DNA of 7,621 nucleotides from Deltaproteobacteria bacterium. Its GTDB lineage: Bacteria; Bdellovibrionota_F; JAHFAK01. The first letter of the stretch is position 1; each line of letters opens with the position of its first letter. The notes under the pieces were generated by a model, which was not told the origin of the DNA, did no database searches, and saw nothing but the letters and a program-made list of their open reading frames with translations. The DNA lies in contig JAHFAK010000098.1 of NCBI GenBank assembly GCA_023250585.1, positions 1 to 7,621 of the forward strand, given 5' to 3'. Positions 1,155 to 7,621 of the stretch are shown here, one piece after another. The position numbers were made by a program, and so were the translations under genes.

Positions 1155-1847
1155 ATGAATTGTGCTATTCTTGGAGCAACTGAATTTGAAATAACACTCT
1201 TACGGTTAGCGGTTTGCGGTGAGCGGTTTGCGGTTCAGAAAATAGGTATTGGTCCAAGAAATGCTCAAAGCTCAATAGAAAAACTTATAGAATCAAATCG
1301 TCCAGATTTTGTTATTGTTTGTGGCTTTTGCGGAGGATTGCAGAACAATCTCAAAACGGGAGATAGTGTTATTTCCGATTCATTTGTTAGTACCACTGAA
1401 AAGATTGAATCAACTATTTCGACTGAAATAAAAAATGTAATTCTTGAAATAGCAGAAAAATTGAAATGTACCTATCATTATGGAAGTACGATAACAGTCG
1501 AAAAAGCACTTCTTACATCCAAAGAAAAAATCAGTGCACAGAAAAAGTATAATGCTCTAGCTGTTGAGATGGAAAATTTCCCCATTGCAAAAACATGTAA
1601 AGAACATGGTATTCCCATGATATCAATTCGCGCTGTTTCCGATAAAGTCGACGAGGATTTAGACTCGCGTTTTTTTAATGTGATCGATACCGATGGCTCT
1701 CTACGAAAAAGAAAACTCCTGCAATATCTCGTGAGAGATCCTTTTTTTATGTGGTCACTCATTAAAACAGGAAAGGCATCGAGGAAGGCACGAAAAAACT
1801 ATTCGAGATTAGTTCACAAAATTATCACTCACTTCGCAAACCAATAA
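1155..1847 (+). CDS. Nucleoside phosphorylase/nucleosidase family protein (MTAN/HpnG-like)
   Basis: The 230-residue product aligns by eye with the PNP/UDP phosphorylase superfamily. The N-terminus ILGATEFEITLLR matches the start of E. coli MTA/SAH nucleosidase, including general-acid Glu12. GFCGGLQNNLKTGD (about 57-70) is the phosphate/ribose-loop region. AVEMEN (136-141, with M139 and E140) and IRAVSD (158-163) match the ribose-binding Met-Glu and catalytic Asp (E. coli E174, D197). The tail from about 172 (a DTDG motif, then a basic helical end rich in ARK) resembles the hopanoid-associated phosphorylase HpnG more than classical MTAN, and the short N-terminal loop is also HpnG-like. A purine nucleosidase/phosphorylase activity is likely, but the substrate is not decided. 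The gene starts 2 bp after the transferase stop, with AAAAGAG about 6 nt upstream as ribosome binding site. Residues 17-28 are encoded by a 7-bp repeat array, and the stop codon lies in an inverted copy of it. Confidence 0.8.
   Translation: MNCAILGATEFEITLLRLAVCGERFAVQKIGIGPRNAQSSIEKLIESNRPDFVIVCGFCGGLQNNLKTGDSVISDSFVSTTEKIESTISTEIKNVILEIAEKLKCTYHYGSTITVEKALLTSKEKISAQKKYNALAVEMENFPIAKTCKEHGIPMISIRAVSDKVDEDLDSRFFNVIDTDGSLRKRKLLQYLVRDPFFMWSLIKTGKASRKARKNYSRLVHKIITHFANQ
1203..1237 (+). repeat. 7-bp tandem repeat array inside the nucleosidase-like gene
   Basis: Five consecutive heptamers of the type CGGTTTG occupy 1203-1237: CGGTTAG, CGGTTTG, CGGTGAG, CGGTTTG, CGGTTCA. Because 35 bp is read in phase with the gene, they encode residues 17-28 (from R17 to Q28) in the variable loop after the catalytic N-terminus. 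The local base composition is much more GC-rich than the flanks. Positions 1217-1235 have a 19-bp perfect inverted match at 1846-1864. This suggests a dispersed repeat that landed in, or became part of, the coding region. Confidence 0.85.
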
Positions 1848-1864
1848 CCGCAAACCGCTCACCG
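1837..1864 (-). repeat. Inverted copy of the 7-bp repeat array at the gene end
   Basis: Read on the minus strand, 1864 to 1837 is CGGTGAG, CGGTTTG, CGGTTAT, TGGTTTG, four heptamers of the array at 1203-1237. A further decayed unit (CGAAGTG) lies at 1830-1836. The stop codon of the nucleosidase-like gene (1845-1847) lies inside it, so the last residues of that protein are repeat-derived. The array ends 6 bp before the 3' end of the tRNA-Pro gene. A 19-bp perfect inverted match to 1217-1235 is present. Confidence 0.85.
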
Positions 1865-3810: not shown

Positions 3811-6800
3811 ATGAACAAGCATCACCTATCTAAAGTAATAGTACTACCACTTTTTGTGGGATTAACCTTACTTATTAACTCGTGTGGTTTTCTCCAAGAT
3901 GCTCATTACTTCAGAGGAAAGGATACTACAATACTTGGGCAACAAATATTCGGTGATGTAGCAGGTGATGCGGCAGAACAAACTGGATCGCTTAATAATC
4001 CAGACTCTGCTCAAGTAGGTTCAACAGCTACGGTAAGTGATGGAATTGTTGATACCGATGGCGATGGAATCGCTGATAACGAAGACAACTGTCCAGATGT
4101 ATCTAACTCAGATCAAAAAGATAGTGATCAAGATGGAATTGGTGACGTGTGCGATGACGATCGTGACGGTGATGGAATCCCAAATGAAGAAGACAACTGC
4201 CCTGATCTATCAAGTGCCGATCAAACCGATACCGATAAAGATGGAATCGGTGATATATGCGATCCTGATGATGACAATGATGGAGTTCCTGATGAAAAAG
4301 ATAACTGTCCTCACATCAGTAACGCTTCTCAAAAAGATCTCGATGGCGATGGAATCGGTGATGCATGCGACTGTGATATTGATGATGATTCAATAAATAA
4401 CGAAGGTACCGATGACTTAGGTGTGGTTTGCGAAAATCCAGTCGATAATTGTTCATTAGTAGAAAACCTCGATCAAGTTGATACCGATAAAGATGGATAT
4501 GGTGATGCATGCGAATGCGATATAGATGGAGACAAGATCGAAGATAGCGTTGCTGCTGATTGTAGCGGTGATGACACCTGTCCTTACGATATAAATTCAG
4601 GAATAGATGAAGATCAAGACGGTATCGATGATGCATGTGATACCTGTATTGATACCGATAAAGACAATGCAGGTTTAGGTACCGCTACTGAAACCTGTGT
4701 TAAAGATAATTGTCCTGATATAGAAAATCCTGACCAAGCAAATAGCGACTCAGATGTAAAAGGCGATGCATGCGATGATTGTATTGACTCAGATGGTGAT
4801 GGGTATGGATTAGGCACCAAGTCAGAAAGTTGCCTCCAAGATAATTGCCCAACGGTTGCAAATGATCAAAAAGATTCAGATGCAGATGGTGAAGGTGATG
4901 CATGCGATATTGATGATGATAACGATGGCATTCCTGATCCAGAAGATAACTGCCCATTAGTTAACAATCCTAATCAAGAGGACCTTGATAAAGATGGAAT
5001 CGGTGATGCATGCGATTGCGATAAAGATAACGATGGACAAAATGAACCCGAATGCGATGGAAAAGATACATGTTTAAGAGGTAGTGAAAATGACGTTGAT
5101 GGAGATAACATCTGTGTAAGTGATAACTGCCCATCAGTAATCAATCCCGATCAAAAAGATAGTGATGGAGACACCCTTGGTGATGCATGCGATAGTTGTC
5201 CATTAGATTCTACAAATGATAGCGATGAAGATGGAATTTGTGAAAATCTCGATAACTGTCCTGGTGTAGCTAACTCAAATCAAAAAGATTCCGATGGTGA
5301 CTTAGTTGGAGATGCTTGCGATATCTGTCCACAAGATAGCCCGAACGATATCGATGAAGATGGTATTTGCACAAGCATAGATAATTGTCCAACAACTGCA
5401 AATTCCGGACAAGAAGATAAAAATGATGTTGGAAAACCAGATGGCGATGGAATCGGTGATGCATGCGACTTTGATAAAGATAACGATGGAATAAACGACG
5501 ACGTTGATAATTGTCCAACCATATCAAATCCTGGACAAGAAAATACCGATAACGATGAATTTGGAAATGTATGCGATACTTGCCCAAATGATCCACAAAA
5601 TGATAGTGATCATGATGGAATTTGTGGCGATTTAGATAACTGTCCATTTACCGCAAATGAAACTCAAGACAATAGCGACGGAGATACTTACGGAGATGTA
5701 TGCGATACCTGTCCAAATGATATAGATGAAGGAGATTTATCTGATTCTGATAACGATGGAGTTGGAGATCAATGCGATAATTGCCCTGCTGTTGCAAATG
5801 CAGATCAATCTGATGTTGATAATGATGGCTTAGGCGACGCATGTGATACGTGTCCTAACGATGTAGAAAATGATCAAGATAAAGATGGTGCCTGTGGCGA
5901 TGTTGATAATTGCCCTGTCGATGCAAACGCTAATCAAAATGATCAAGACAAAGATGGTAAAGGCGATATATGCGATATCTGTGCTAAAGATGCTCAAAAC
6001 GATGGCGATGGTGATGGTATTTGCGGTAATGTTGATAATTGCCCATCAACTGCAAATAAAGACCAAGCTGATCAAGATCATGATGGACTTGGAGATGTAT
6101 GCGATCCATGTCCTGAAGGTGATGATGATAAGGATACTATATGTAACAATGTTGATAATTGTAAAAATACATCAAATACAAACCAAGCTGATGCAGATCA
6201 CGACAGTATTGGTGATACATGTGATAATTGCCCTTCAAAGGCAAATGCAGATCAAATCGATGCAGATGGTGATGGACTCGGTGATGTTTGTGATAGCTGC
6301 AAAGATGATCCCACAAACGATGATCCAGATAGTGATGGGAAGTGCACAAGCCAAGATAATTGTCCGAATGTTTCAAATCCTACTCAATACGATGACGATG
6401 GAGATGGGGTAGGAAATCTCTGCGATAACTGTCAATTTGTGGCAAATCCAGACCAAGCTGATAGTAACGATATTGATCTAACTTTCGATATTAATGGAAA
6501 TGAAATTAAGATTACTAAAAAAGATGGCGTTGGCGATGCATGTGATAACTGTCCTGCTCGCTACAATCCAAATCAACATGATCAAGATGGGGATGGCATT
6601 GGTGATCTTTGTGACCCATGCCCATTTCAAGATAGTAAAATATCAGATCTTGACGGCGATAAAATATGTGCTGGAGTAGATAATTGTCCTCTCGTTGCAA
6701 ATGCTGGTCAGAAAGATACTGATCATGATGGTCGTGGTGATGCATGCGATATATGTAGCCTTGTAGCAAATTATGAACAATTTGATGATGACAGCGATGG

Positions 6801-7621
6801 GATAGGTAATGTCTGCGATAACTGTCCAGCTGTTTCAAATCAATTTCAAGAGGATTTTGATCAGGATCATATAGGTAATGCTTGTGATAACTGCCGCAAC
6901 ATTGCTAATACTCCACAACGTGATACTGATCACGATACTATCGGAAACGCATGCGATAATTGTCCGAAAGTAAGCAATACAGACCAAGCTGATACCGATG
7001 GTGATCGTATTGGTGATACATGCGATAACTGTCCTCTCGTTGCAAATGATCAAGCCGATGCTGATACAGATGGTGCTGGTGATGCCTGTGATGCATGTCC
7101 TCATGATGCAAACAACGACAAGGATAAAGACGAGATCTGTGCAGACAAGGATAACTGTCCTGATACATCGAATCAAGACCAAGCTGATGCAGATAATGAT
7201 GGTGTTGGGGATGTATGCGATTCAGAGAACTGTTATCATGATGACGATCAAGATCATGTCTGTGATGATATAGATAATTGTGTAAATGTAACTAACCCAG
7301 ACCAAGCAGATTCAGATCACGACGGTATCGGTGATGCATGTGATAATTGTAAAGACATCTACAATCCTTCCCAACAAGTTGATACCGATAAAGATACTGT
7401 AGGTAATGTGTGCGATAACTGCCCAGGCATAGTAAATACCGACCAAACCGATTATGACCTCGATGCTGTAGGTAACGCATGCGATAATTGTCCGGATAAT
7501 TACAATCCAGGACAAATCGATAGAGATCATGATGGTCTCGGTGATGTCTGTGATCCATGCCCTGAAGGAGATCGAGATGGAGATGGAATATGTGACCACT
7601 CAGACAACTGCCCTCGCGATG
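3811..7621 (+). CDS. Giant lipoprotein of thrombospondin type 3 calcium-binding repeats, 3' end outside the window
   Basis: The frame is open for at least 1270 codons and runs off the window. Residues 1-24 form a lipoprotein signal peptide: a basic start (NKHHLSK), a hydrophobic core ([14 protein letters not shown]) and lipobox INSC with Cys25, followed by Gly at +2, which favours outer-membrane or surface retention. Residues 26-80 are a non-repeat linker. From residue about 81 to the end the protein is thrombospondin type 3 repeat: acidic DxDxDG calcium loops, GDxCD, and about 31 DNC motifs, usually followed by P and an N-x-x-Q turn. Each repeat would bind calcium through its aspartates, and neighbouring cysteines would pair after export, giving a stiff, calcium-dependent rod. 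Role is not provable here; stalk, adhesion or surface spacer functions are typical suggestions. A terminal functional domain is probably beyond the window. Promoters lie at 3493-3678. A start at 3700 is possible but would bury the signal peptide. Confidence 0.92.
4051..5187 (+). repeat. TSP3 repeat zone A, irregular modules
   Basis: This zone contains eight DNC motifs, at 4084, 4192, 4303, 4444, 4705, 4843, 4945 and 5122. The first three are 36-37 residues apart, as in classical TSP3 proteins with a DGIP loop before each DNCP. Later spacings are irregular (34 to 87 residues), with degenerate modules around 4366-4440 and 4525-4700 that carry variants such as DDTCP. The DNA coding for GDACD recurs as GATGCATGCGA at least five times in this zone. 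Confidence 0.85.
5188..6153 (+). repeat. TSP3 repeat zone B, about 43-residue period
   Basis: DNC motifs at 5251, 5383, 5506, 5635, 5776, 5905, 6034 and 6154 are separated by 120-141 nt, most often 129 nt (43 residues). Each unit combines two calcium loops: a CDxCPxD half ending in DxDGIC, and a DNCPxxAN half ending in DGxGDxCD. The regular period suggests tandem duplication of a two-loop unit followed by divergence. Confidence 0.85.
6154..7621 (+). repeat. TSP3 repeat zone C, mixed with an exact 23-residue period run
   Basis: Single-loop 23-residue units (69 nt) appear here among the double units. Six successive units start at 6679, 6748, 6817, 6886, 6955 and 7024, with exactly 69 nt between each; the second has DIC in place of DNC. 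Further 69-72-nt steps occur at 6154-6226, 6355-6424 and 7273-7483. Most of these units have CDNC, so the two cysteines form a CxxC pair. A non-repeat insertion interrupts the zone at about 6466-6520. The zone continues past the window. Confidence 0.85.

Follow-up and report, generated by a model that had tools for sequence, protein, structure and literature searches.

The two inverted heptamer arrays at the ends of one gene in the window (the whole stretch of 7,621 nucleotides that was analysed) are expected to be arms of a dispersed family of mobile elements, and we give this reading a probability of about 0.8. The full-length form of the family carries a PF05635 gene and the short forms lack it; PF05635 is the family of the four-helix-bundle "23S rRNA intervening-sequence protein" (IVP). 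Direct support came from the dispersal of the arrays in this genome, the same arms around its sole IVP gene, the recurrence of the design at most of the IVP loci sampled, the presence or absence of the element at orthologous Nostocales junctions, and an IVP gene that is interrupted by an IVP-less element.

The left array, at positions 1203-1237 on the forward strand, consists of the units CGGTTAG, CGGTTTG, CGGTGAG, CGGTTTG, and CGGTTCA, the fifth of which is degenerate. The right array, at 1837-1864, is inverted and reads CGGTGAG, CGGTTTG, CGGTTAT, and TGGTTTG on the minus strand. The arms pair in inverted orientation between 1198-1232 and 1835-1869 (35 nt, 86% complementary) and between 1214-1235 and 1846-1867 (22 nt, 95%), and these pairings include the perfect 19-bp match that an earlier note on this DNA had described. 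A two-unit pattern with at most two mismatches matched seven times in the window against 0.15 expected, a number reached in 0 of 200 shuffles, and a three-unit pattern matched four times against 0 in 300 Markov shuffles. A chance origin of the arrays was therefore excluded, and the inverted arrays that the earlier note had placed at both ends of the gene were confirmed by coordinates as well as by shuffling. The right arm neighbours a tRNA-Pro (CGG) gene on the minus strand (1870-1946), which lies outside the element; the array is indeed close to the 3' end of the tRNA, the gap being 5 bp rather than the 6 bp first given. Elsewhere in the window, a long open frame at 3811-7621 with Asp-rich repeats of calcium-binding type, thrombospondin type 3-like by eye, was observed to run off the end.

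The gene that carries the arms (1155-1847, forward strand) encodes a PNP_UDP_1 nucleosidase-like protein (HpnG/MTAN-like). Residues 17-28 are encoded by the left array, of which one forward frame among three is open and is the frame used by the gene, and the right array encodes the last codons together with the TAA stop codon at 1845-1847; the earlier note had likewise given the residues and the position of the stop codon inside the right array. That note had also placed the residues in a variable loop. This was half right: the stretch from helix 1 to the GIG strand does differ in length among homologues, but in an AlphaFold2 model (mean pLDDT 87.5, approximately 80 at these residues) the segment closes helix 1 and continues through a turn into strand 2. 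The reading of the array as an added loop was rejected: a homologue (L141) and the HpnG profile are approximately as long as the window protein and lack the array; therefore, the array replaced sequence and was not simply added. A gene cassette framed by the arms was likewise rejected, because the first strand and helix of the protein, which match the family, are encoded outside the left arm.

Subsequently, array-pattern searches were extended to the whole genome (G000, 2.24 Mb, in which the window is contig C17), and the stretches around the matches were read. Many further arrays were found; the reversed pattern, used as a control, matched nowhere in three of the array searches and once in the loosest. 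The earlier note had offered a dispersed repeat family as one explanation and had named the lack of other copies as the outcome that would speak against it, and the copies observed here bear the explanation out. Twelve of them are hairpins of about 50-85 bp with inverted CGGTKWG-type arms, several with one arm decayed. In the standard hairpin, a loop of about 20 bp with CG on either side separates about four heptamers from about four inverted ones. A profile recovered all 12 at E values of about 1e-6 or better; because it was built from the same 12 hairpins, the count rests on the pattern searches, and the covariance model, which kept only 6 base pairs, works mainly as a sequence profile. Intact hairpins fold far above shuffled sequences (-65 kcal/mol, z -14, for the copy on contig C141), and in decayed hairpins this advantage is much smaller.

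The hairpins mostly lie between neighbouring genes, several of them immediately after one stop codon and before the following start codon. The copy on C141 adjoins a tRNA, but most copies lie between protein genes, and an element targeted to tRNAs was rejected, as a tRNA adjoins only two of about 14 sites. Accordingly, of the earlier suggestion of traces of a mobile unit next to a tRNA, the mobile unit stood, given the dispersed copies and the gene-bearing copy described below, and the tRNA proved incidental. The window is not the sole in-frame case, because a family hairpin at C14:35697-35742 (L055) lies in frame in a 1045-residue sensor-kinase-like protein, where it looks like part of a linker between receiver domains. 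CGGTKWG units are abundant in G000 and rare elsewhere: a strict search for the unit gave 0-3 matches in 57 of 58 other genomes and nine matches, mostly in one array, in the remaining genome. Near-perfect heptamer arrays were also seen in the pattern searches, at C1:2087585-2087637 of G052 (CGGTGTG) and C25:6102-6150 of G017 (TGGTCCC).

One copy in this genome differs from the hairpins in its contents. At C117:31818-32238 (421 bp), the family arms lie approximately 360 bp apart around a PF05635 gene, the only one found in the genome; the earlier note had drawn no connection to IVP elements. Its 126-residue product is a four-helix-bundle protein (PF05635, E 2.3e-41; TIGR02436, 132.8 bits against a cut-off of 24), and its nearest solved structure is 2gsc (Xcc0516). 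As in the window gene, the stop codon of the IVP gene lies inside the right arm. The other available genome of the phylum also has one PF05635 gene, and inverted heptamer arrays of a different sequence frame it. The window arms are inverted arms of short-period repeats, as in IVP elements, and their heptamers are those of the dispersed hairpins and of the IVP-framing arms on C117. A Pfam test found no IVP gene between them, the interior being the nucleosidase; therefore, the window holds at most a non-autonomous copy or remnants and not a full element.

The design around the C117 gene recurred widely. PF05635 loci occurred in 43 of 116 genomes, and loci were then sampled, several per genome, so that they are not independent. 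In the 68 loci with both flanks, a stretch counted as an array if it reached 19/28 matches at any of the lags 5-13. By this measure 57 loci had an array upstream and 49 had one downstream, 41 had arrays on both sides, and in 38 the two sides had the same period, usually 7; the upstream and downstream labels of the first 30 loci ignore strand, which leaves the two-sided counts unaffected. Control intervals elsewhere in the same loci (n = 63) gave 9, 8, 1, and 0, respectively. With a Markov null for each flank, both sides exceeded the 95% level in 46 of the 68 loci and did so with the same period in 44, mostly 7 (31) or 8 (11). The two arrays matched better inverted than direct at 46 of 51 loci, and a third of the sampled loci had no clear array on one side. 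Among 25 named loci from cyanobacteria, Nitrospira, Betaproteobacteria, Poribacteria, and others, 23 had an array on at least one side. The IVP elements spanned 365-653 bp (median 524), and in 23 of 51 the stop codon lay in, or at most 3 bp from, the right array.

The sequence of the arm unit varies from genome to genome while the framing of the IVP gene stays. Two other genomes (G001 and G041) also contain dispersed IVP-less arrays or arm pairs whose unit is that of their own IVP elements. By crude ORF calls, the IVP gene was in the sense of both neighbours in 34 cases and antisense to both in 11, an excess that would fit either selection or an RNA step. Arms of period 8 (L076, L084, L087, L095, and L096) and of period 9 (L077) were also seen; since the period always agrees on the two sides, it may track a subtype of the protein. 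In a further genome (G009), divergent pairs of short PF05635-like genes recur several times (L218 on C7 and L219 on C2, for example). The two genes of a pair are separated by about 100-150 bp that contain an inverted repeat, and the arrangement looks like a doubled form of the element. No IVP was found in phage records.

Movement was examined by comparing sites with and without the element; all of these comparisons come from Nostocales plasmids and concern copies other than those of the present genome and window. Five orthologous junctions in conserved gene neighbourhoods were found both filled and empty: one between T. variabilis and N. linckia at approximately 98% identity, two in one operon (gene1/gene2 and gene2/gene3), one between an integrase and the next gene, and one between nrdB and nrdA. 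Furthermore, in Nostoc N6 (L201), an arm-bounded element with matching heptamers and no IVP interrupts an IVP gene. From the filled and empty junctions and this nested element, we conclude that the elements move. In Brasilonema, the site at which T. variabilis carries the IVP element is occupied by an arm pair that lacks IVP, and judging by such sequence comparisons the short forms appear to move too. The candidate duplication GTAATTAA suggests an 8-bp target duplication at one Nostocales site, the other sites being ambiguous.

Taken together, these findings suggest the following scheme. A full-length element of about 0.5 kb would consist of an array of degenerate direct repeats of 6-9 nt, usually 7, an IVP gene, and the same array inverted, and gene-less short forms, either hairpins or arm pairs with other contents, would spread as non-autonomous copies, mostly to gene junctions. 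The IVP presumably recognises the heptamer arms, as DNA or as RNA hairpins, and may act in trans on the short forms, with host enzymes probably cutting and joining; neither a transposase nor another joining enzyme was identified for the element. In the window, the left arm would have replaced sequence in the length-variable stretch of the nucleosidase and stayed in an open frame, and the right arm would have landed at the end of the gene and supplied its last codons and stop.

Two histories of the window arms were weighed within this scheme. We lean slightly towards the arms being two scars, each of them the one arm left of a regular hairpin, with the left scar in the gene and the right scar at the junction between the gene and the tRNA, and give this about even odds. 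In other copies in this genome one arm is intact and the other has decayed, the sequence CAGAAAAT that follows the left array resembles the start of the hairpin loop GAGAAAAAT, the right array sits at a gene junction as is usual, and the N-terminus of the nucleosidase lies outside the left arm. However, independent and converging solo arms less than 700 bp apart would be improbable by chance unless movement is local. A single 662-bp element, movable as a cassette in principle, in which the body of the nucleosidase now occupies the interior normally held by an IVP gene or a loop, is a serious possibility at somewhat less than even odds. Its span is close to the 365-653 bp of the IVP elements, the score of each window array is like that of a solo arm of the C117 element, with no local partner, and only 0.075 pairs within 700 bp would be expected among 16 random sites. 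Nevertheless, the best pairing of the arms is shifted by two units, and the arms bound no gene, since the left arm begins only after the family-like first strand and helix.

It is improbable that the arrays are purely regulatory or structural repeats, acting on transcript ends, mRNA stability, or protein binding and never mobile. Their intergenic positions near gene ends and their strong RNA folds would suit such roles, which have been proposed for STRR and TAACTGA repeats (PMC2670836, PMC4679880), but the presence and absence of elements at orthologous sites, the nesting in an IVP gene, and the complete change of the unit between genomes while the IVP framing stays argue against them; a secondary regulatory role of mobile arrays may exist. 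An invertible switch of the 600 bp between the arrays, which the earlier note had raised and to which the inverted orientation and the 19-bp perfect match would lend themselves, is very improbable: a Pfam test of four window proteins revealed no recombinase family, an inverted segment would disrupt the gene, and most other array pairs in this genome are hairpins in which about 20-30 bp separate the arms, leaving nothing to invert.

This family was compared with known systems. The intervening sequence (IVS) in the 23S rRNA of Coxiella burnetii has 28-bp inverted ends and tandem GACAGAT heptamers before the S23p ORF, the number of which varies between strains (PMC4990558). It shares with the present elements the IVP protein family, inverted ends, and heptamers; however, it lies in rRNA, whereas the present elements are located between protein genes or within one, carry on either side arrays whose unit is specific to each genome, and are accompanied by dispersed short IVP-less copies. 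The window arms, one within a protein gene and one at its end rather than in a 23S rRNA helix, were not filed as an IVS. For CPR bacteria, too, IVP genes have been reported inside rRNA insertions (PMC11270868).

The STRR of cyanobacteria are degenerate tandem units, usually of 7 bp, which are intergenic, form hairpins, and have no known function (PMC2670836; Vioque 1997 as cited in PMC2858038). Such arrays serve as arms in several of the cyanobacterial IVP elements found here, but STRR are described as repeats only and are connected neither with IVP nor with the inverted ends of an element. The hairpins of the present genome have the form of STRR; as STRR are defined in cyanobacteria, this is a likeness only, and no membership is claimed. 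In X. campestris, 186 GGGAATC arrays, mostly of four units, are 89% intergenic and include 70 convergent pairs; this bacterium also has the IVP of structure 2gsc, and its heptamer arrays were read as G-quadruplex repeats (PMC4692102). The TAACTGA arrays of Beggiatoaceae are dispersed and intergenic, and the author considered a mobile origin; unlike the arms here, they are almost all direct, with only one inverted case reported, and no link to IVP is made (PMC4679880).

MITEs and REP/BIME are likewise short, dispersed inverted-repeat elements whose spreading factor is encoded elsewhere, and the 12 hairpins have terminal inverted repeats and no transposase gene, as MITEs do. However, the arms here are freely drifting arrays of 7-nt units, and no parental transposase was identified: the gene-bearing copy on C117 encodes an IVP and no known transposase. 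Avd of diversity-generating retroelements is a homologous four-helix-bundle protein, but the C117 protein scored only 33 bits against the Avd model (cut-off 80). Apart from the Coxiella note, no general link between IVP and heptamer arms was found in the literature searched; subscription papers and preprints were outside the search, and priority is therefore uncertain.

IVP genes have been reported near cas genes (PMC3936711) and appear in a figure on associations of CRISPR adaptation modules (PMC10910872). Because IVP elements are mobile, such genes near cas genes or CRISPR arrays may be inserted passengers and not parts of CRISPR systems. More broadly, we propose tentatively, at just short of an even chance, that IVP is the mobility factor of widespread bacterial transposable elements that have no known transposase, reverse transcriptase, or nuclease of their own and whose arms are drifting arrays of 7-9-nt direct repeats, and that much dispersed heptamer DNA, including STRR, GGGAATC, perhaps TAACTGA, and the window arrays, is their debris. 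Heptamer repeats such as STRR, GGGAATC, and TAACTGA have been reported piecemeal in bacteria for decades with their function unknown, and we know of no function for PF05635, a common protein family. Joining IVP and heptamer arrays gives both a testable role, that of a mobile element. An element made of an IVP gene and heptamer arms would also seed IVP-less hairpins between genes and, as in the window, in frame inside genes, and the occurrence of the design in many bacterial groups could explain these long-puzzling seven-base repeats.
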